Below are positions 12,696-36,420 of a stretch of DNA of 37,102 nucleotides, in pieces. The notes under the pieces are model-generated. The model worked only from the letters and a program-made list of their open reading frames with translations, had not been told where the DNA came from and did no database searches. The stretch lies in the NCBI RefSeq assembly GCF_009834785.1, contig NZ_WUYX01000031.1, forward strand, positions 1-37,102, read 5' to 3'. The DNA comes from Natronorubrum halalkaliphilum. GTDB lineage: Archaea > Halobacteriota > Halobacteria > Halobacteriales > Natrialbaceae. Position numbers and translations under genes: made by a program. Every line of letters begins with the position of its first letter. Position 1 is the stretch's first letter.

Positions 12696-13112
12696 CAACG
12701 CTCTTCGGCTGCTTTCGACGGTGTTCCCGTTCGGAACATGCCGACGGTGTCGGCCCCTCAGAACGGCCGTTGTCCCGTTTGTCGCGCGGTCGTGTCGCTT
12801 TCGGCGTAATACTGTACTACTCGCGGATACGCGATCGATAATTAACCCTCGTGGCTCGCAACGACCTGCTATCGTGACCGTTCGGGTTGTACTGCCCCTC
12901 GATCGAGTCGCAACTGATCGAGCGGGCTGGCAGCCGGTGTCCTCACCGCGGCTCGAGCAGCCGGGCGACTGGCAGTTGCCACGAGCGGGGGTGACTCGCC
13001 GGCCACCACGACGCGAGGCGACTGACCGGCGATCACGACGATCCCGGGCGGCAGACCCCTCGCCGCGATGCGGACCGCCCGTCCAGCCGTCGCCGACGGA
13101 GGTGACCCATCG
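12696..13112 (+). other. Intergenic region upstream of the Bat regulator, 417 bp
   Basis: No convincing gene is present; the open frame at 12721-13116 encodes an Arg/Pro-rich product unlike haloarchaeal proteins. An A+T-rich ATAATTAAC at about 12838-12846 could be a TATA element giving a leader of roughly 250 nt before the GTG at 13113. The last 20 bp hold a strong Shine-Dalgarno site. Confidence 0.4.
13098..13105 (+). promoter_or_regulatory. Shine-Dalgarno site deciding the Bat regulator start
   Basis: GGAGGTGA, a full match to the archaeal anti-Shine-Dalgarno sequence, ends 7 nt before GTG at 13113. It argues for that GTG over the ATG at 13068. Confidence 0.65.
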
Positions 13113-16100
13113 GTGAGCGACGAACGCGCGACCGTCGTCGGCGACGTTCTTCGGGTGCTCGTCGTCGGCGACTCCCGGACGATCGACGGCGCGATGGACG
13201 CGCTGTCCGCGTCGTTCGAATCGATCTCGCTCGTCAGGGAACGAACCGTCTCGAGCGCCATCGGGCGGCTCGCACAGCTCGATATCCACTGCGTCGTCTG
13301 CCCGCTCGAGGGACCGGGGGGCGATTCGTCGGTCCTCGAGCGGTTCCGGGAGCGAGACGACGAGCTTCCGATCGTCGCCGTGACGGGCGAGCGACCGGTG
13401 AATGAGGCGGCGATCGACACCGCACTCGAGTCGGGAGCGACTGACGTCGTCGACGCCGACGATCCGCGATCGCTCGTCGCCGTCCGGGTCCGAAACGCGG
13501 CCGAACGCTACCGCCTCGTCGCCGAATCGGAACGACGCAGCCGGACGATCCTCGAGCGCTCCGACGCGCTGGTCTGGGTGCTCGATGGAACGGGGATCGT
13601 CGAGTACGCGAGTTCGGCCGTCGAATCGCGAATGGGGTATACGCCGGACGAACTCGAGCGGACGCCGCTAACCCAGCTCGTTCATCCGGACGACCGCGAA
13701 ACGGCTCGAGAGACGGTCTCGACGGTATCGACGGCCGCGGTCGGGACGAGCGAGGACGTTTCCGTGCGGATCGGACACGGCGACGGCGCCTGGCACGTGT
13801 ACGAACTCACCGTCACCAATCGGCTCACGGATCCGCTCGTCGAGGGCGTCGTGGTCACGTTCTCGACCGCGCCCGCCGCTGACACGGACGGCGTTCGGAC
13901 GGCGCTCGATCGGCTCGGACAACCGGTTTTCACGCTCGGTCCGCAGTGGGAGCTTCGCTACGCGAACGCGGCTGCCGACCGCCTCTTCGTCGCGGACGAC
14001 GGGGCTGTCGAGCCCGGAGCGGTCGTCTGGGACCTCCTCGACGATACCGTTCGCGGGACGTTCTCCGAACGGTTTCTCGAGGCTCGGACGACCGATAGCG
14101 CCGTCGAGTTCGAGACGGCGTACCCGGCGCTCGAGACGCGGTTCGCGGTCTCCGTTCGTCCCGGCGAAGACGGGATCACCGTGTCCGCACGCGAGATCGG
14201 TGACGGCGTACCCGGCGCCGCCGACCGGGAGCGGTTCGATCTTCTCGAGTCGATCGTCGACGCGCTCGACGACGGCCTCGCCGTCCTCGAGGGATCGACG
14301 ATTCGGTTCGCCAACACTGCGCTGTTCGACCTGACCGGGGCGGAGACGCTCGTCGGCCGCGAACTGGAGACGGTGTTCGACGACGATCTGACGGCAGCGA
14401 TCCGCGAGCGAGCGGACGCTCCGGTCGTCAGGTGGATGGAACCGGTCTCGGGGACGCTCGTCGCCGGAGACGACTCCTGTCCCGTCGACGTGTTCGTCAC
14501 GCCGCTGTCCGGTGACGATCGAACCCTCTGTGTCGTTCGCGACAGGGATCGGTCGCCGGCCGCCGCGCTGTCGACCGTCCGCGAGACGGTCGCGACGCTC
14601 CGCGACGCCGAAACCCGCCCCGCCGTTCGTCAGTCCGTCGTCGACGCGGCACTCGCCTGTACCGACGCCGATCTCGTCGGCTGGTATCTCGTCGACGAGG
14701 ACGCACTCAGGCCGGCAGCGGTCGCGACGGCCCTCTCGACACCCCCGGTCGAACTGCCGTCGATCGATCGAACAGAAATCGACTTGCTCGAGCGTCTCGA
14801 GACCGGGGGGAAGACGGATTCGGACACCGACACCAGTACTGGAGCCAACACAGACACAGACACAGACACAGACACAGACACAGACACAGACACAGACTCA
14901 GACACCGACGCCGACGCCGACGCTGATGCTGCTGTCGGCCAAGGAACCGTCTTCGACCGATCCGCGCTCGATCCCGCACTCGCTCGGTCCGGCATCCGTG
15001 CGGAACGAGTCCTCGTCGTTCCGGTCGCCGACCACGGCCTCCTGCTCGCGACCAGCACCGAGCCGATGGCGTTCGAGGGGCTCGATCGGACGCCCCTCGA
15101 GGTCGTCGTCGGGGCCGCGTCGACGACGCTCGACGCACTCGAGCGAGGGTCGGCAATTCGGACGTACGAAGCCGATATCGACCGCCTCGAGTCCGTCGTC
15201 GCCCAATGTCGGCGCCTGTGCGAAATCGAGCGGACGCTGCTCGCCGGCGACACCCGCGTCGACATCGAGCAGCGACTCTGTGATGCGCTCGTCTCGCTCG
15301 AGCCCGTCGGAACGGCCGGTTCGATCGAACTGGCCTGGGTCGGCCACGTCGATACCGGTTCCGACCGAGTCGTCCCGAACGCCTGGGCGGGCCGAGACGG
15401 CGAGTTCCTCGACTCGACTGCGGTTTCGCTTTCGACGGCTGCCGATGGTGTACAGCCTCATCCGACGGCGACCGCTGTTGCGAGACGCGAGCCGACGGTG
15501 CTCGATGATATCCCGCGTCATGAGGGGACGCACGACCCCGACCGCGACCAGAAGTGGCGACGTCGCGCGATCGAGCGCGGGTTTCGATCCGTCCTGAGCG
15601 TCCCGCTGGGTACCGACAGTCTGCAGTACGGGACGCTCACCCTCTATGCGGATCAGCCATCGGCGTTCGACGACGCCACGCGACGGGCGTGTACCCATCT
15701 CGCGGCGGTCGCGAGCTACGCGATTGCCGCGGTCGAACGGAAACGCGCGTTGCTCTCCGATCGCATCACCGAACTCGAGATCGTCCTCCGAGACGGCGAC
15801 GAGCCGCTGTCGTCGATCGCCCGTCGGTTGGACCGGAAACTCGACGTCCAGGCCGTCGTTCCCCGTTCGTCGAGCGGGTCGACGGTGTTCTGTACCGCCC
15901 CGGACGTCGGCGAGGACGCGATCGACGCCGCCCTCGAATCGCAGCCGTCGATCGAATCGGGACGGCTCGTCGGCGAGCGCGCGGCGGATTCGGTGCTCGA
16001 ACTCGTCTTCTCCGAATCGACCGTCGCGGAGACGCTCGCGGACCACGGCGGGATCTTGCGGTCGATTACGCCGGTTGACGACCGTGCCCGACTCGTCGTC

Positions 16101-16439
16101 GAACTCTCGAGTACCGTCGACGTTCGGTCGTTCGTCCGCACGATCCGGCGAACCCATCCCGGTACGGAACTGGTTGCCCGTCGCGAACGCGACCGATCCG
16201 CTCGGAACGGCCGCGCGTTCGATGCCGAACTTCGCGGTCGCCTCTCGGAGCGACAGTTTCGAACCCTGGAGACGGCGTACTACGGCGGGTTCTTCGAGTG
16301 GCCCCGCGAGAGCACCGGCGAGGAAATCGCCGACTCGATCGGCGTCTCACAGCCGACGTTCAGCCGCCACCTGCGGGTCGCCCAGCACAAGCTGTTTGAG
16401 TTGCTGTTCGACGAGCGAACCGACAGCAACGAGAACTGA
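13113..16439 (+). CDS. Multi-sensor Bat (bacterio-opsin activator)-type HTH_10 transcriptional regulator
   Basis: The 1108-residue cytoplasmic protein has these domains in order. (1) A receiver-like domain (about 10-115) has V-V-G-D-S, but V-V-C-P-L-E-G where the phospho-acceptor Asp is expected, so it looks non-phosphorylatable. (2) A PAS domain (about 140-260) has G-Y-T-P-D-E-L and H-P-D-D-R. (3, 4) Two more PAS-like domains lie at about 265-365 and 375-480. (5) A GAF-like domain (about 490-680) is split by a Thr-Asp repeat linker near 579-600. (6) A Bat-type GAF domain (about 700-860) has R-S-V-L-S-V-P-L-G. (7) A C-terminal HTH_10 domain (about 1040-1095) has L-S-E-R-Q-F-R-T-L-E-T-A-Y and G-E-E-I-A-D-S-I-G-V-S-Q-P-T-F-S-R-H-L. 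It should sense a small molecule, redox state or light and bind DNA. Its target is unknown; no kinase or opsin gene is nearby. Confidence 0.9.
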   Translation: MSDERATVVGDVLRVLVVGDSRTIDGAMDALSASFESISLVRERTVSSAIGRLAQLDIHCVVCPLEGPGGDSSVLERFRERDDELPIVAVTGERPVNEAAIDTALESGATDVVDADDPRSLVAVRVRNAAERYRLVAESERRSRTILERSDALVWVLDGTGIVEYASSAVESRMGYTPDELERTPLTQLVHPDDRETARETVSTVSTAAVGTSEDVSVRIGHGDGAWHVYELTVTNRLTDPLVEGVVVTFSTAPAADTDGVRTALDRLGQPVFTLGPQWELRYANAAADRLFVADDGAVEPGAVVWDLLDDTVRGTFSERFLEARTTDSAVEFETAYPALETRFAVSVRPGEDGITVSAREIGDGVPGAADRERFDLLESIVDALDDGLAVLEGSTIRFANTALFDLTGAETLVGRELETVFDDDLTAAIRERADAPVVRWMEPVSGTLVAGDDSCPVDVFVTPLSGDDRTLCVVRDRDRSPAAALSTVRETVATLRDAETRPAVRQSVVDAALACTDADLVGWYLVDEDALRPAAVATALSTPPVELPSIDRTEIDLLERLETGGKTDSDTDTSTGANTDTDTDTDTDTDTDTDSDTDADADADAAVGQGTVFDRSALDPALARSGIRAERVLVVPVADHGLLLATSTEPMAFEGLDRTPLEVVVGAASTTLDALERGSAIRTYEADIDRLESVVAQCRRLCEIERTLLAGDTRVDIEQRLCDALVSLEPVGTAGSIELAWVGHVDTGSDRVVPNAWAGRDGEFLDSTAVSLSTAADGVQPHPTATAVARREPTVLDDIPRHEGTHDPDRDQKWRRRAIERGFRSVLSVPLGTDSLQYGTLTLYADQPSAFDDATRRACTHLAAVASYAIAAVERKRALLSDRITELEIVLRDGDEPLSSIARRLDRKLDVQAVVPRSSSGSTVFCTAPDVGEDAIDAALESQPSIESGRLVGERAADSVLELVFSESTVAETLADHGGILRSITPVDDRARLVVELSSTVDVRSFVRTIRRTHPGTELVARRERDRSARNGRAFDAELRGRLSERQFRTLETAYYGGFFEWPRESTGEEIADSIGVSQPTFSRHLRVAQHKLFELLFDERTDSNEN
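14848..14897 (+). repeat. In-frame hexanucleotide tandem repeat (ACACAG, about 8 units)
   Basis: Fifty bases with perfect period 6 lie inside the Bat regulator gene and encode alternating Thr-Asp. Diverged copies (GACTCAGACACC, then GACGCC-type codons) continue to about 14930. Because the unit is 6 bp, copy-number change keeps the reading frame. Confidence 0.9.
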
Positions 16440-30446: not shown

Positions 30447-32165
30447 TCACTCGGCCGTTGCCATTGCGTTCAGTTTTGCCAGGATTACGTCATCGAGCGT
30501 GTAGGTTCGTTCGGCCGGCCGGTCGAGAACGCCCGCCGTCCGGAGCTCCGAGAGGAGCCCCTGCACTGCGACCGTCGAGCGCCCGACCCTGTCTGCGACG
30601 GCTTCGGCCTCGAGCGGCCCGTCGCGAGCCAGCGCAACGAGCACTCGACGGGCCGTCGACGCTGTACACTGTGATTGGTCGGCCGCACGCGTGAGGTCCT
30701 CGTCGATCCAGTCGCCTTCGAACAGTTCCTCCGGTTCGCTCCCGCCAGTCGCAGTGGTGATCTCCGTTTGGGACTCGGTCCCCGTCTCATCCGACTCGTC
30801 GGCGACGTTCGTATAGCCGAACTCGACGTCGTTCCCACCAGCCTGAACGATTTCCGTTTCTGTTTCAGTCTCCGTCTCCGTCTCGACCTCGGATTCCGAC
30901 CGCTCGTCTTCCCGTGCCGCTTCGAGTTCGCGAACCCGTGCCCGCAGTCGCTCGTTTTCCTCGCGCAACCGATCTCTCGCTTCCGTCCGCGATTCAAGTT
31001 GCGTCTCGAGCGTCTCGATTCGCTCCTTGCCGTCGGAGAGTTCCGCCTCGAGTTCGTCCCGCTCTTCTTCGAGGTCGACAAGTTCGTCGTGAAGCCGACG
31101 CAGTTCCTCGTCGTTTCCACCGCCCAACTGGGTCTGGACCGACCCCGTCCCCGTCAGCGCGTCCGCCATTTGCTTGGCCGCACTCGAGACGTCACGCGCC
31201 GACTCGAGTTCGTCTTCCAGGGTCTCGATTCGCTTTTCTTTCTTCTCGAGTTCGTTCTCGAGTTCGAGGATTCGATCCTCTTCGCGCTCCTTTCGTTCCG
31301 AAATATCCTGCAGATCACCGACGAGGGCATCCGAGACGGACTTGAGTTCGGGCCGTTCGAAATCGTCCAGCCCCGGCGTCGCTCCGGCGTCGAAGGTTCG
31401 TTTTCGACGGAACTGGATCTTGCGGACGTCGAGTTCGGTCCAATCGGTCTGGACGAACGCCTGCCCGTCGTTGAGATCCGAGACGAGTTCCGAGTACTCC
31501 GTGTCGATGATGCGGCCGACGACCTTGGTGTCGTTGTCCCAGGTGAGGCGGTGCCAGACGAGCCAGTTCGCCTGCGTGATGAAATCCTTCTTGACGTCGG
31601 CCGGTCGCTGGCTGATCCCGAGAATTCCGAGCCCGTGCTTTCGGCCGCGTTTGCTGATCTTGATCAGGAGGTTGCCCGTCTCGCCGACGCCGCCACCCTC
31701 CGGAATGTACTCGTGGACCTCCTCGACGACCAGCAGGAACGGCTTTTTCAGCTTCTTTTCCTTGACGAACAGCTGTCGAGCGATCTTTCGCAGCAGTTCG
31801 TCGGCGACCTCTTCGTCGAGATAGCCCGACACGTCAAGAATCACCGGGACGTTCTCCTCGAGTGCGAGCGAGGCCATCTGTTCGGCGTGTTCCGGCCCGA
31901 TCTGAATGTCACACTCTTCGTCCGCGCCCGCGTGGAGCATCTCGTACTCCTCTTTGAGCCCGTAGTACTCGCCGTCCGTGTCGACGATCAAAAGCGGAAA
32001 GCCCGCCTCGAGTAATTCTTCGGCGATAACCGACGCGGTGTTCGATTTTCCGGAACCGGACTTCCCCGTGACGAATCCGCGACCGGTCAGTAGTTCGACG
32101 ACGGGGAGGGACAGATCCTGTCCGTCGTCCGTTTCGCCGACGAGGATCTCGCGCTGGTCGCTCAC
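30447..32165 (-). CDS. HerA-like (DUF87) ATPase with coiled coil and C-terminal winged helix
   Basis: The 572-residue protein starts at GTG 32163-32165, set by a GAGGTGAT ribosome-binding site 6 nt upstream. Residues 28-280 are a HerA/FtsK-superfamily ATPase: Walker A G-K-S-G-S-G-K-S (34-41), Walker B P-F-L-L-V-V-E-E-V-H, and K-R-G-R-K-H-G-L-G-I-L-G-I-S-Q-R-P-A-D-V. Residues about 285-430 form a coiled coil of heptads, for example I-L-E-L-E-N-E-L-E-K-K. A Glu/Thr repeat follows, then a winged-helix domain (about 500-560) with S-T-V-A-V-Q-G-L-L-S-E-L. HerA-type enzymes are hexameric DNA translocases, classically with the nuclease NurA; no nurA is in the window. The gene diverges from the ParA gene across the palindromic array, so a role in DNA segregation or partition is possible. 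Confidence 0.87.
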   Translation of the reverse strand: MSDQREILVGETDDGQDLSLPVVELLTGRGFVTGKSGSGKSNTASVIAEELLEAGFPLLIVDTDGEYYGLKEEYEMLHAGADEECDIQIGPEHAEQMASLALEENVPVILDVSGYLDEEVADELLRKIARQLFVKEKKLKKPFLLVVEEVHEYIPEGGGVGETGNLLIKISKRGRKHGLGILGISQRPADVKKDFITQANWLVWHRLTWDNDTKVVGRIIDTEYSELVSDLNDGQAFVQTDWTELDVRKIQFRRKRTFDAGATPGLDDFERPELKSVSDALVGDLQDISERKEREEDRILELENELEKKEKRIETLEDELESARDVSSAAKQMADALTGTGSVQTQLGGGNDEELRRLHDELVDLEEERDELEAELSDGKERIETLETQLESRTEARDRLREENERLRARVRELEAAREDERSESEVETETETETETEIVQAGGNDVEFGYTNVADESDETGTESQTEITTATGGSEPEELFEGDWIDEDLTRAADQSQCTASTARRVLVALARDGPLEAEAVADRVGRSTVAVQGLLSELRTAGVLDRPAERTYTLDDVILAKLNAMATAE

Positions 32166-32171
32166 CGACCC

Positions 32172-32205: not shown

Positions 32206-32396
32206 AGTACACTCCCAATACGGGACCTTGAATATTGGCCTCGATGCATGTGTGACCTCGCGTTGCTCGAGTCGGCACAAGGTGAAGACGGTCTAAACTG
32301 TGTACACAGTTCAGACTGTGTGCTGCTGTCGTCTGTAGGGGGTATCGATTCGGGTGCTGCTCTTCGGCCCGTGACCAGTCGACTAGGCACTGTGCA

Positions 32397-32464
32397 CAAC
32401 GTCTACACTGTCCGGACAGTTACAAAACTGCAAGGTTTACACTGTTCACACAGTGTAGACGTTG
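32397..32464. repeat. 15-bp perfect inverted repeat pair
   Basis: CAACGTCTACACTGT at 32397-32411 is the exact reverse complement of 32450-32464. The 38 bp between include the perfect palindrome 32407-32420, which overlaps the left arm, and the dyad 32438-32457. Confidence 0.85.
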
Positions 32465-32533
32465 CGTTCGATTTCTCTAGCATCGGATATACCCGAGTAG
32501 CACTTTCAAACCCTCTACCGGCATTACTCTCCT

Positions 32534-32603
32534 ACACATTCTACACAGTGCACACCGTGTAGCCTCCACTACAATCACACAGTGTGCACTGTGTAGAATG
32601 TGT
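32534..32603. repeat. 20-bp perfect inverted repeat pair
   Basis: ACACATTCTACACAGTGCAC at 32534-32553 is the exact reverse complement of 32584-32603, with 30 bp between. Each arm also takes part in a smaller dyad (32541-32562 and 32577-32594). The pair could form a cruciform or RNA hairpin, or be two oppositely oriented binding sites. Confidence 0.85.
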
Positions 32604-32788
32604 GTGATTTTCCGCTACTGTTAAGTCACTGTATTTGAATTATAGGGCTGTCTCTCGTCGCGTCCAACCGGACAAATCACCGCTTTACATTGTACAATGT
32701 CCACACCGTGCACACGCTTTCGACCGTTCGCACGTCGAGAACCGTTCGAACGGTCCATCGGTTCGTCAACGCCGCAACCGTGTGGGCA

Positions 32789-32823
32789 GTCTACACTGTG
32801 TGGACGGTCTACACCGTGTAGAC
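32789..32823. repeat. Tandem pair of 17-bp dyads on an 18-bp repeat
   Basis: GTCTACAC-T-GTGTGGAC and GTCTACAC-C-GTGTAGAC stand one base apart. The 18-bp period places the two sites nearly two helical turns apart, suited to cooperative binding of a dimeric protein. Confidence 0.8.
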
Positions 32824-33019
32824 TTCCCGGACGGTTTCCGGCGTCTAAACCGCGCCGACTATCGAACAATTCCGTGTCGAAACTATCGAGCGAACGGTCT
32901 CAACAGCGTCCACATTCTACACTGTGTAAACCGCGAAGAACGTGTGGGAGGTACACACATCGGAAACAGCTCACGACGTTCGGACGGTGTTTGCCGTCTC
33001 GAGCCCGGATGCGACGATC

Positions 33020-33025
33020 GAGGTG
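33020..33025 (+). promoter_or_regulatory. Shine-Dalgarno site of the ParA gene
   Basis: GAGGTG lies 6 nt before the ATG at 33032 and supports this start over GTG/ATG codons further upstream inside the array. Confidence 0.55.
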
Positions 33026-33031
33026 TCACAA

Positions 33032-33868
33032 ATGACGACCAACGACCCACGCGCCGTGAGCGTCGCCCTCCAGAAGGGCGGCGTCGGCAAAACGACGCTC
33101 GCGATCAACCTCGCCGAACGACTCGCCAACCGAGACAACGATGTCCTGCTCGTCGACTTAGACCAGCAGGGAAACGCCACCGAAGGCGTCGGCCTGAGCG
33201 ACGCGTACTCCAGTGACGTTCACATCGGTGACGTCCTCGAGGACGGCTCCGGAATCGCACTCGAGGACGTGATCCGTTCGACCGACTCGTTCGACGTCCT
33301 TCCGGCCCACGAGGATCTGGACAGCGTCGAGAACAGCATTCGGAGCGCGACCTTCGGCGAACTGTGGATCAGAAACGAGATCGTCGATCCCGTCCTTGGT
33401 GAGGAGTACGACTACGTCGTCGTCGACTCGCCGCCGAATCTCGGCCCGCTCGCTGACGCCTCGCTCATCTCGACCCAGAACGTCATCGTGCCGCTTCGAA
33501 TGAGCGAACCCAGCGTGAGCGGATTCGAGCGTATGTACACCCAGCAGATCGGCCCGATTCGCAAGGAAATCGACCTCGACATCATGGCGATCGTTCCGAA
33601 CTCGCTGGCCGGCGATAACGAAGAGAAACGGATCATCGGCGACCTCGAGGACTCGCAGTTCGGGGCATTCCTGCCTCGGTTCGCACGAGCGGATCACTTC
33701 GAGGACTCGAACTCGCCCGGACCGGGAATACGAGAGCGGATCGCGTTCAAACGAGCGTGGCGCGAGGGGGTCCCGCTCGCGGCGTACGATCCGGAGAACG
33801 ATATGCTCGAGCGACTCGACGAACTGGCCGCGATCGTCGAACGCGGAGGTGTCGCCGATGCCCGATGA
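33032..33868 (+). CDS. ParA/SegA-type P-loop ATPase
   Basis: The 278-residue protein begins M-T-T-N-D-P-R-A-V-S-V-A-L-Q. The deviant Walker A K-G-G-V-G-K-T-T (residues 15-22) has the signature Lys15, the A' segment is L-L-V-D-L-D-Q-Q-G-N-A-T, and Walker B is Y-V-V-V-D-S-P-P-N. This is a ParA/Soj/SegA-type ATPase, which forms ATP-dependent dimers on DNA and moves plasmid or chromosome centromeres with a site-specific partner. The length is short, without an N-terminal HTH domain, as in type Ib ParA and in SegA. Its stop overlaps the next start by 11 bp, so the pair is one operon. The palindromic array upstream is the candidate centromere and operator. Confidence 0.92.
   Translation: MTTNDPRAVSVALQKGGVGKTTLAINLAERLANRDNDVLLVDLDQQGNATEGVGLSDAYSSDVHIGDVLEDGSGIALEDVIRSTDSFDVLPAHEDLDSVENSIRSATFGELWIRNEIVDPVLGEEYDYVVVDSPPNLGPLADASLISTQNVIVPLRMSEPSVSGFERMYTQQIGPIRKEIDLDIMAIVPNSLAGDNEEKRIIGDLEDSQFGAFLPRFARADHFEDSNSPGPGIRERIAFKRAWREGVPLAAYDPENDMLERLDELAAIVERGGVADAR
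33845..33851 (+). promoter_or_regulatory. Shine-Dalgarno site inside the ParA gene
   Basis: GGAGGTG, within the end of the ParA gene, lies 6 nt before ATG 33858 of the partner protein and selects it over GTG 33849. Confidence 0.6.
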
Positions 33869-34400
33869 TAACCGGTTTGCGGGCCTGAGCGAGGCGGTCG
33901 ACGACGATGGTTCGGCGACCAACGAAGACGACAGCCAGCCTGCCGAGTCGGCGGTGGATGCGGACTCGAGTGGAGAATCGAACCCGAACGCAGCCTCGAA
34001 CTCGGGGTCAACGAAGACCGAGTTCGAATCCGTCGCTGCTGAGACAGACACCGACAGCGTTGTCGACACCGACGCCACCGATATCGATACCGCCGATTCC
34101 GGTGCAGATACAGATTCAGACTCAGACTCCGTCTCTGCCTCCAACTCCAGCTCCGAAACGAGCGATGCTGACGATCCGACCGCCTTCCCGTTCGACGCAG
34201 CGGAGAAAAAGACGGCGTACGTTCGGCCCGAGACGCTCGACGATCTGGAAGACGCGCGCGCGTTAGTCGATGCGCAGCTGCGAACGCAACACGACGTCCG
34301 CGATTTAACCGGCCGCGAGTTCTACGACGCGGTCTTTCGGCTCGCCGCGGCGGATACGGACGGCCTGATCGAGGCGGTGCTCGAGGCCCGCGACGACTGA
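33858..34400 (+). CDS. ParA-partner protein: acidic disordered N terminus, putative ribbon-helix-helix C terminus (SegB-like)
   Basis: The 180-residue protein begins M-P-D-D-N-R-F-A-G-L-S-E-A-V. Residues 15-108 are low-complexity Asp/Ser/Thr (for example D-T-D-S-D-S-D-S-V-S). Residues about 118-178 form a compact domain: K-K-T-A-Y-V-R-P-E-T-L-D-D-L-E-D-A-R-A-L-V-D, then V-R-D-L-T-G-R-E-F-Y-D-A-V-F-R-L-A-A. A short strand followed by two helices is what a ribbon-helix-helix monomer looks like, and it follows the only basic patch. Haloarchaeal plasmid ParA genes are often followed by proteins of this build. The archaeal SegB protein likewise has a flexible N terminus and a ribbon-helix-helix C terminus. 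I infer that it binds the upstream dyads, but this is not shown by the sequence alone. Confidence 0.7.
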   Translation: MPDDNRFAGLSEAVDDDGSATNEDDSQPAESAVDADSSGESNPNAASNSGSTKTEFESVAAETDTDSVVDTDATDIDTADSGADTDSDSDSVSASNSSSETSDADDPTAFPFDAAEKKTAYVRPETLDDLEDARALVDAQLRTQHDVRDLTGREFYDAVFRLAAADTDGLIEAVLEARDD

Positions 34401-34422: not shown

Positions 34423-36420
34423 CTACTCCGTTGGACCTGTTCGGTCCGGAGCGGTAGTCTCGGTGGCATCGTCGGCCTCCGTGTCGGCGTTGGTGCCCGA
34501 TTCGGTAGCATCGCCATCATCGCTCCCGTCGCCACCGTCGTTACCGTCGCGTTCAACAGTCTGCTCGCGGATCGTCATCCCCTTGCGACCGAGATGTTGG
34601 AGTTGCTTGCGAGCGAAATCCTCCTCTCGAGTGCCGCGTGTCGCCAGCACGTAGACGAGCGCGCCGCCGGCGGGGCGCATCGTCCGTCCGGCCCGCTGCG
34701 TACCCTGACGCCGCGAGCCGCCGAGTCCGGACGCGACGATCGCGAGGTCCGCGGTCGGCAGATCGATCCCCTCGTCGCCCACGCGAGAGACGAGCAACAG
34801 GTCGCGTTCGTTCCGTCGGAAATCCTCGAGCAGCCGTCGCCGCTCGTGATGGGGCGTCTCGCCGCTAAGGAAGGGCACGTCGAGGGCAGCTGCGAGGGCT
34901 CGCCCCTGCTCTAGGTAGTCGACGAAGACGAGCGCCTTCGCGTCGGGGTGGGCCGAAAGGAGGAACCGCACTTCGTCGATCTTGCCCCGGTTTTGGGCGG
35001 CGATCCGATACCGTTCCTGGCCGTCGGCGGAGGCGTAGGCGTTTTGCTGTTCGTCGTCGCCCCACGGCACGTACCGGATCTCGAGTTCGGGTTCGGCGAC
35101 GAACCCATCATCGAACAGCGCTTCCCAGTCGGTGCCGATCGGCGGCCCGACGAGGGTGAAGATCTCTTTCTGGCGGTCGTCTTCTCGGATCGGAGATGCG
35201 GACAAGCCCAGGCGATGCCGGGACTGCAGGTGCGTGCTCCGCCGGTAGACGTCCGAGGGAACGTGCTGGCACTCGTCGAAGACGACCAGCCCCCACTCGC
35301 GGTCGTCAAACAGCGATCGATGACGATCCATCCCCGCGATCTGGTAGGTTGCGATTGTCACGGGCCGGACGTTCTTCTGGCCGCCGTGGTACTGGCCGAT
35401 CTGGTGGGGTTCGAGCGACGTATACTCCGCGATCGTCTCGGCCCACTGCCGTGCGAGGTCGCGACTCGGGACGAGTACGAGCGTCTCGCCGCCGACGTGA
35501 GCCATCGCCCCCATCGCAGCGATCGTTTTCCCGCTTCCCGGCGGGCCGACGAAGACGCCCTCGCCGGACTCGGCGAAGCGATCGACCCAGGTCTGTTGGT
35601 ACCCTCGCAGTTGTACCGTGAACTCGATCGGAAGGTCCTCGCCGGACAGCAGATCCCGGTGATCCTGTACCGGGTAGCCCGCTTCGTAGAGGATCCGCTT
35701 GATCGCAGCCTCCGATCCCTCCTGGACCCAGTCTTCGGTCTCGGAGATGGGGGCGTGGACGTGTTCTTCGTCGAGTTTCTGCCGAGCGACGTTGCCCATG
35801 ATTTCCGGGCTCTGTCCCTCGAGTACCGTGTAGCCGTCCTCGTGGGTGGCGAGTCGGAACTGGTGGGCTCGATCCCACTGGCTCTCGACCCAGTCCTCGA
35901 GTTGGTCCGAGCGCTGGCCCAACGCCTGGCGCATCGTCCGCGCGAGTCCCTCGAACTCGTCGTGGGGTGCTTGCCAGACGTCTTCGGGTCTGACAACGTA
36001 GCGATAGCCGTCCTCGCCGTTGCCGTCCGCGAGGTGGGCGAACTGAGCAAGTTGGGCGCGGGTGAACTGATCCGGCCGGTCGACGATAATTTCTCTGCGT
36101 TTGGGGAAGACGACGACCCGTTCCCGATCGGTCAGATCCTCGAGTTCGCTGGGGTACCAGACCACGGGGTCCGTCTCGACGGAATGCCGTTGCAGGTCGC
36201 CTCGGTCGGCGAGGGCCTCGAGCGCCTCGCTGGCCGTTTCCTGGGGGAGATCGAGGGCTCGAGCGACGGCTGCAGCGGTGAGGACGGGTCGGCCCGCTTT
36301 CTGGGAGGCGTCGTGGAAATCTGCAATCGTCAACGCCTCGGGGTGGTCGTCCGAACCGTCGCCGGTCGCCTGCTCCTGTGGCTCGTCGCCAGTCGCCTGC
36401 GAGGAGGGGTCGTCGGTCAC
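34423..36420 (-). CDS. XPB/Rad25-like DEAD/DEAH superfamily 2 helicase
   Basis: The 665-residue protein starts with a low-complexity tail and a winged-helix-like part (about 30-90). A damage-recognition-like region follows, then helicase domain 1: Walker A G-P-P-G-S-G-K-T (292-299), motif II F-D-E-C-Q-H (381-386), motif III L-S-A-S-P. The XPB hallmark R-E-D occurs in I-R-E-D-D-R (411-416). Helicase domain 2 has S-R-V-G-D-E-G-I-D-L-P and motif VI Q-R-A-G-R-T-M-R-P. XPB-type enzymes open DNA during repair and, in eukaryotes, transcription. Archaeal XPB is often paired with the nuclease Bax1, which is not adjacent here. The tail is Asp/Thr/Gly-rich. It converges with the ParA partner gene, 22 bp apart. 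Confidence 0.92.
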   Translation of the reverse strand: MTDDPSSQATGDEPQEQATGDGSDDHPEALTIADFHDASQKAGRPVLTAAAVARALDLPQETASEALEALADRGDLQRHSVETDPVVWYPSELEDLTDRERVVVFPKRREIIVDRPDQFTRAQLAQFAHLADGNGEDGYRYVVRPEDVWQAPHDEFEGLARTMRQALGQRSDQLEDWVESQWDRAHQFRLATHEDGYTVLEGQSPEIMGNVARQKLDEEHVHAPISETEDWVQEGSEAAIKRILYEAGYPVQDHRDLLSGEDLPIEFTVQLRGYQQTWVDRFAESGEGVFVGPPGSGKTIAAMGAMAHVGGETLVLVPSRDLARQWAETIAEYTSLEPHQIGQYHGGQKNVRPVTIATYQIAGMDRHRSLFDDREWGLVVFDECQHVPSDVYRRSTHLQSRHRLGLSASPIREDDRQKEIFTLVGPPIGTDWEALFDDGFVAEPELEIRYVPWGDDEQQNAYASADGQERYRIAAQNRGKIDEVRFLLSAHPDAKALVFVDYLEQGRALAAALDVPFLSGETPHHERRRLLEDFRRNERDLLLVSRVGDEGIDLPTADLAIVASGLGGSRRQGTQRAGRTMRPAGGALVYVLATRGTREEDFARKQLQHLGRKGMTIREQTVERDGNDGGDGSDDGDATESGTNADTEADDATETTAPDRTGPTE

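Follow-up and report, generated by a model that had tools for sequence, protein, structure and literature searches.

A 9-bp repeat array upstream of parA in Natronorubrum and other haloarchaea as a probable replicon partition site

We describe a locus in Natronorubrum halalkaliphilum where a ParA-type ATPase gene and the gene of a small partner protein are preceded by a dense array of short repeats. The locus lies in a stretch of 37,102 nucleotides, hereafter referred to as the window. The parA gene (33032–33868, plus strand) encodes a ParA/Soj-type Walker ATPase of 278 amino acids (Pfam AAA_31, E 2.6e-35, and CbiA), and the parB-like partner gene (33858–34400, plus strand) encodes 180 amino acids. 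These coordinates bear out the 11-bp overlap of the two genes given in the original prediction, as the analysis described below bears out its claim of a cassette in which ParA and a partner are combined with a large array of repeats. The pair is flanked by two neighbors in conserved synteny, namely a divergent HerA-like ATPase gene (30447–32168, minus strand; DUF87/HerA_C), which lies outside the partition pair, and on the other flank an XPB/RAD25-type helicase gene (34423–36420, minus strand; ERCC3_RAD25_C). The divergent intergenic region between the HerA-like gene and parA, 863 bp long, houses the dyads.

Elsewhere in the window, positions 674–30444 look like a surface-polysaccharide or glycosylation cluster, judging from translations only (glycosyltransferase-like, GlmS-/GlmU-like and phosphatase-like products). 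Positions 13068–16439 hold an ORF for a PAS/GAF-like regulator in which Thr-Asp and Ala-Asp dipeptides form a long run, a tract that is probably prone to slippage.

The array extends over positions 32282–32932, upstream of parA, and comprises about 28 copies (scoring above 4 bits) of a near-palindromic 9-bp unit, GTNTANAC-N. The spacings found by a repeat search are in many cases multiples of 9, and a profile scan groups the units in eight short in-phase runs: 1) 32282–32317, four units; 2) 32392–32418, three units, with the 14-mer ACTGTCCGGACAGT found at 32407–32420 by palindrome search; 3) 32435–32461, three units; 4) 32530–32565, four units; 5) 32582–32599, two clear units; 6) 32690–32752, four clear units up to 32734 and GTTCGAAC in phase at 32744–32751, with palindromes at 32687–32700 and 32741–32754; 7) 32780–32824, five units, including GTCTACAC-C-GTGTAGAC, seen also among the two-unit matches; and 8) 32897–32932, four units, the run closest to parA. 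When the unit GTNTANAC is scored as present at no fewer than five of its six fixed bases, the intergenic region contains 13 neighbor pairs at spacing 9 compared to 0.04 expected. Two-unit matches with at most two mismatches number 17 in the window, 16 of them in the array region, compared to 0.54 expected, and three-unit profile matches above 13 bits number 23 compared to a mean of 0.014 in 500 Markov sequences. Outside the array region, the three-unit profile scan of the window yields no match above 11.3 bits. The array as a DNA feature is real and strongly supported, and its nine-base register is a strong signal that the original prediction missed.

That prediction described about ten dyads, divided them into two related classes, and suggested that several proteins might share the array. 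The count is acceptable if imperfect dyads are included; perfect palindromes with arms of 7 or 8 upstream of parA number five (32296–32311, 32407–32420, 32687–32700, 32741–32754 and 32807–32823), among them GTCTACAC-N-GTGTAGAC and three 14-mers of the form AC...GT. Perfect palindromes alone are only mildly unusual, with five of arms at least 6 in that 872-bp bin compared to 0 to 4 in the other bins of the window. Centered on a unit, a dyad has the sequence AC-N-GTNNNNAC-N-GT and corresponds to the predicted 14-mer; centered on the spacer between two units, it has the sequence GTCTACAC-N-GTGTAGAC and corresponds to the predicted 17-mer. Since a single 9-bp unit accounts for both, we dropped the division into two dyad classes, and the idea of several proteins sharing the array goes with it.

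The ParA protein has its Walker motif at the very start and lacks an N-terminal DNA-binding (HTH) extension, and a PDB sequence search with it returns Soj/ParA proteins as top matches. The partner is built from a conserved N-terminal MPDDNRFAGLSEAV, an acidic low-complexity linker and a conserved C-terminal domain (residues ~106–180). It is kept across 14 aligned relatives, in which the N-terminus MPxDNRFAGLSEAV and the C-terminal domain are conserved and the linker is not; partners of different classes (see below) have in common an N-x-F-x-x-L start as well as a Tyr and an Arg that are invariant within a putative strand, which is followed by helices. This arrangement of the C-terminal domain resembles a ribbon-helix-helix (RHH) fold. 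Pfam, NCBIfam and PDB searches with the partner found no relative, searches of viral contigs found none either, and Pfam, PDB-profile and PHROGs searches with the C-terminal domain gave nothing usable. An AlphaFold monomer model of the 78-residue C-terminal domain has moderate confidence (pLDDT 75) and places helices at 22–43, 50–63 and 65–77 after an extended stretch. The putative strand is unformed in this monomer; the RHH ribbon takes shape only in the dimer. Comparison of the domain model by Foldseek and VIA-align found no fold match, and RHH is still compatible with the model; the full-length model (pLDDT 54) is too poor for use. Pfam and NCBIfam find no ParB domain in the partner, which therefore does not classify as an HTH/CTPase ParB. 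The locus does have the features of a type Ib-like ParABS system, namely a ParA that lacks an N-terminal HTH extension and whose gene shares an operon with that of a small partner, and tandem short repeats upstream of parA that are specific to the partner class.

The original prediction assigned the locus to the SegAB type, and the possibility of a genuine archaeal SegAB system whose sites have diverged has to be weighed. As in the SegAB systems of Sulfolobales, the genes of the ATPase and the partner overlap in the same order, the sites lie upstream of the ATPase gene, and the partner has a disordered N-terminus and a small C-terminal domain; SegB likewise has an unstructured N-terminus and an RHH domain at its C-terminus, and the palindromes that it binds lie upstream of segA (PMC12284271). 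However, the SegB site is a 13-bp sequence, TCTAGA-S-TCTAGA, scattered over the chromosome (PMC12284271), and its count in the window is within chance, while three whole genomes contain none at up to one mismatch. Instead of dozens of scattered 13-bp sites, a single replicon here carries one dense and one small 9-bp array. In the PDB sequence search, moreover, seven other ParA/Soj-type sequences rank above 7dut, which we take to be SegA, so that the ParA is nearer to bacterial Soj. We consequently regard a diverged SegAB system as improbable and do not retain the earlier assignment; the cassette probably works like SegAB or type Ib ParABS, yet it should not be filed as SegAB.

The gene order HerA-like, array, parA-partner, XPB is kept in Natronorubrum and several other genera, and so is the overlap of parA and the partner gene. 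When the intergenic regions of the window and of 16 orthologous loci are pooled (17 in total), unit pairs number 211 at lag 9, 143 at 18 and 97 at 27, followed by 63, 52 and 49 at lags 36, 45 and 54, with little between the peaks. The array is present in all 18 genomes that contain a close homologue of the partner (the window's genome and 17 of 17 others) and in none of 29 genomes without one. In the window's own genome the pattern occurs solely before parA and at the site of a second array discussed below. The original prediction named a lack of dyads upstream of orthologous parA genes as evidence against itself; dyads are conserved there, and the array tracks the partner.

The unit sequence depends on the class of the gene pair. 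Besides the cassette of the window (class A), there is a paralogous cassette (class B), whose partner starts with MxNPFDDL and whose parA is ~40% identical; the class B unit has the form CTANNNTAG, with many copies of CCTATTGTA, again in 9-bp phase. With profiles built for each class, the class A upstream regions (18 of 18, L046 included) match A and never B, and the class B upstream regions (11 of 11) match B and never A; most of these same sequences served to train the profiles, so that the missing cross-matches are the informative part. The units remain exclusive even where both classes occur in one genome. Halarchaeum has a third unit related to that of class B, plasmids of Haloferax carry A-like parA-partner pairs with arrays of A-like units beside orc1/cdc6, and PHS1 of Halobacterium salinarum has yet another unit.

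Several individual loci deserve mention. The array of Halostagnicola (L092:7606-9159) is ~1.5 kb long and includes an 18-bp tandem repeat, GCCTACACTCTGTGTACT, equal to two units. L047 (G058:C1) encodes a partner C-terminal domain that is class A-like (61% identical), with no parA match within 16 kb, in a genome with a single array match. A class B pair with its own 9-bp array is found on the 3.35-Mb contig of N. aibiense (L052, G002:C1:737000-752000), a few kb from orc1/cdc6, and is possibly an integrated plasmid. One chromosome without a class A cassette has one 20-bit three-unit match (G034:C1 ~3144312, offset 104312 of L100-L109), perhaps by chance or as a relic.

The generality of the 9-bp register was assessed on a held-out set of 47 additional parA loci from haloarchaea, identified by search with a distant parA. 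Lags that are multiples of 3 are favored in coding DNA as well, and for this reason the periodicity statistic subtracts lags 6, 8, 10, 12 and 15; random windows served as controls. In 37 of the 47 loci, lag 9 ranks first. The 95% level of the controls is exceeded by 35 loci, leaving 12 that do not exceed it, and the 99% level by 27; the difference from random windows (Mann-Whitney p 2.5e-24) is a guide only, since related loci are not independent. Among the exceptions, Halolamina arrays are weak, and L048 has none. We found no account of 9-bp haloarchaeal par arrays in the open-licence literature.

The cassette loci sit on contigs of ~74–270 kb, mostly replicons of 150–270 kb, and plasmid records with the locus exist for N. 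bangense (213,905 bp), N. aibiense (207,310 bp), N. daqingense and Haloterrigena turkmenica. The N. aibiense record is marked linear, but its locus is divided between the two contig ends, which would fit a circular molecule. Relatives that lack the cassette have HerA and XPB on large chromosomal contigs, and the two genes are neighbors in at least eight genomes (G013, G015, G016, G018, G030, G031, G032 and G034), with gaps of 142 to ~1,160 bp between the matches; this frequent adjacency suggests that the replicon carries a captured chromosomal block. Much of one contiguous chromosomal region of ~100 kb is found on the N. aibiense replicon as rearranged blocks, mostly at 50–93% protein identity, while the orc1/cdc6 gene of that replicon, at 117.5 kb, has no match of at least 45% identity in the compared chromosomal stretches. 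Gene content thus indicates a chromosomal block that now forms part of a separate replicon; this replicon has an orc1/cdc6 of its own, and its par cassette lies between XPB and HerA. Alternatively, the cassette may have been lost from the cassette-less chromosomes instead of being gained by the block. The new chromosome formed by fission in Haloferax volcanii similarly places chromosomal genes on a separate orc1-dependent replicon, but it arose by a laboratory recombination event and random partitioning is assumed for it (PMC6063281), in contrast to the dedicated par cassette inside the captured block here.

The second, smaller 9-bp array lies at L063:8532-8567 (G000:C15:22531-22566) and at L069:9570-9632. 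Over its full length, the N. aibiense replicon carries arrays at only two places, before parA and in one five-unit run at ~109,570–109,632. In most genomes examined the second array adjoins the same genes, encoding CobQ, a small protein that we refer to as "MAKD", an MTH865-like protein and a PAS/GAF HTH regulator, and in some it is ~8–10 kb from an orc1/cdc6 gene. A position antipodal to parA on the circle is roughly true in three genomes and fails in G023 and G026, and this idea was dropped. Lying far from parA, the second array is strictly needed by neither a centromere nor an operator and counts against a partition reading; it may act as another centromere, in regulation or in looping.

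The neighborhood of the second array bears on which protein reads the repeats. The "MAKD" gene is within ~2 kb of it in several genomes, and another RHH-like protein of this sort could bind the array; however, the array-bearing G001 and G004 give only a weak partial match to "MAKD", and strong homologues occur in many genomes without arrays. We find binding by such a protein scarcely credible, and for "MAKD" itself the pattern of presence and absence relative to arrays led us to reject a role as the reader. It is also very unlikely that the array is an element of an iteron-type replication origin to which ParA and its partner are linked by position only. The same replicons do carry orc1/cdc6 genes, close to the parA pair in Haloferax, but in Natronorubrum replicons the best-scoring orc1/cdc6 is far from parA (for example, 117 kb in G002:C4), and the unit sequence varies with the parA-partner class.

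A further alternative is that the array serves purely as an operator for the divergent promoters of parA and the HerA-like gene, with the partner as repressor and the centromere elsewhere. The array occupies the whole divergent intergenic region, promoter overlap is expected under autoregulation, and the second array precedes a regulator gene at a site distant from parA. Against this, eight runs in 650 bp, and ~1.5 kb in Halostagnicola, far exceed what an operator needs; the Haloferax and Halobacterium loci keep their arrays despite a different upstream neighbor; and the fully read N. aibiense replicon has no other large array. We consider a purely regulatory role unlikely.

The explanation that we prefer, and judge to be probable by analogy with known systems, is a ParABS-like partition cassette of a secondary replicon of ~200 kb, in which the partner would bind the array as both centromere and operator and ParA would move the replicon. 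We infer partner binding, one dimer per unit, autoregulation and a ParA gradient as its elements. The partner, probably as a symmetric dimer, would bind each near-palindromic 9-bp unit, and adjacent dimers 9 bp apart would pack side by side on runs of three to five units, so that the eight runs within 650 bp could form one large partition complex, the centromere. Since the array also fills the divergent promoter region, repression of the operon by its own partner protein is probable. Carried on a disordered acidic tether, the partner's short conserved N-terminus may reach ParA-ATP on chromosomal DNA and trigger ATP hydrolysis, and the resulting ParA gradient would carry the replicon along. Each parA-partner class would read its own 9-bp unit, which could keep coexisting replicons from interfering.

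Two other known systems come close to this cassette. The delta-omega system of pSM19035 (ParA with an RHH-type ParB and a parS of 7-bp heptads) likewise pairs ParA with a small partner and has contiguous short repeats of fixed period over the par promoters, in several runs per plasmid (PMC9499535), and full ParA activation there requires at least four contiguous 7-bp repeats (PMC9499535). The present system differs in its period of 9 instead of 7, its near-palindromic unit, its archaeal host, an RHH fold that is putative, and a partner with a long acidic linker and the conserved N-terminus MPDDNRFAG. Tandem near-palindromic units are also found in MetJ met-box arrays, where each 8-bp unit binds one RHH dimer; MetJ is a transcription repressor only and has no ATPase partner.

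The array bears on the segregation of the chromosome and megaplasmids in haloarchaea, a largely open question for which random partitioning at high ploidy is a frequent assumption. Haloarchaea are polyploid, so that active partition is not strictly required (PMC6063281). It seems to us an evenly balanced proposition that haloarchaea share a centromere format, consisting of near-palindromic units that precede parA in strict 9-bp register, with one unit per parA-partner class, read by a DNA-binding partner new to current family libraries, and that in Natrialbaceae one such cassette inside a captured chromosome block has produced a stably inherited second chromosome. The mechanism is likely, by analogy, and the general 9-bp pattern is easy to test. 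If the format holds, one could predict the centromeres of most haloarchaeal ParA replicons from their sequence, among them plasmids of Haloferax mediterranei and Halobacterium salinarum, in which the idea is directly testable. The locus would also illustrate how a piece of a chromosome turned into a separate replicon that has a segregation system of its own. In such a system the array probably provides the handle on which replicons are drawn apart when the cell divides.
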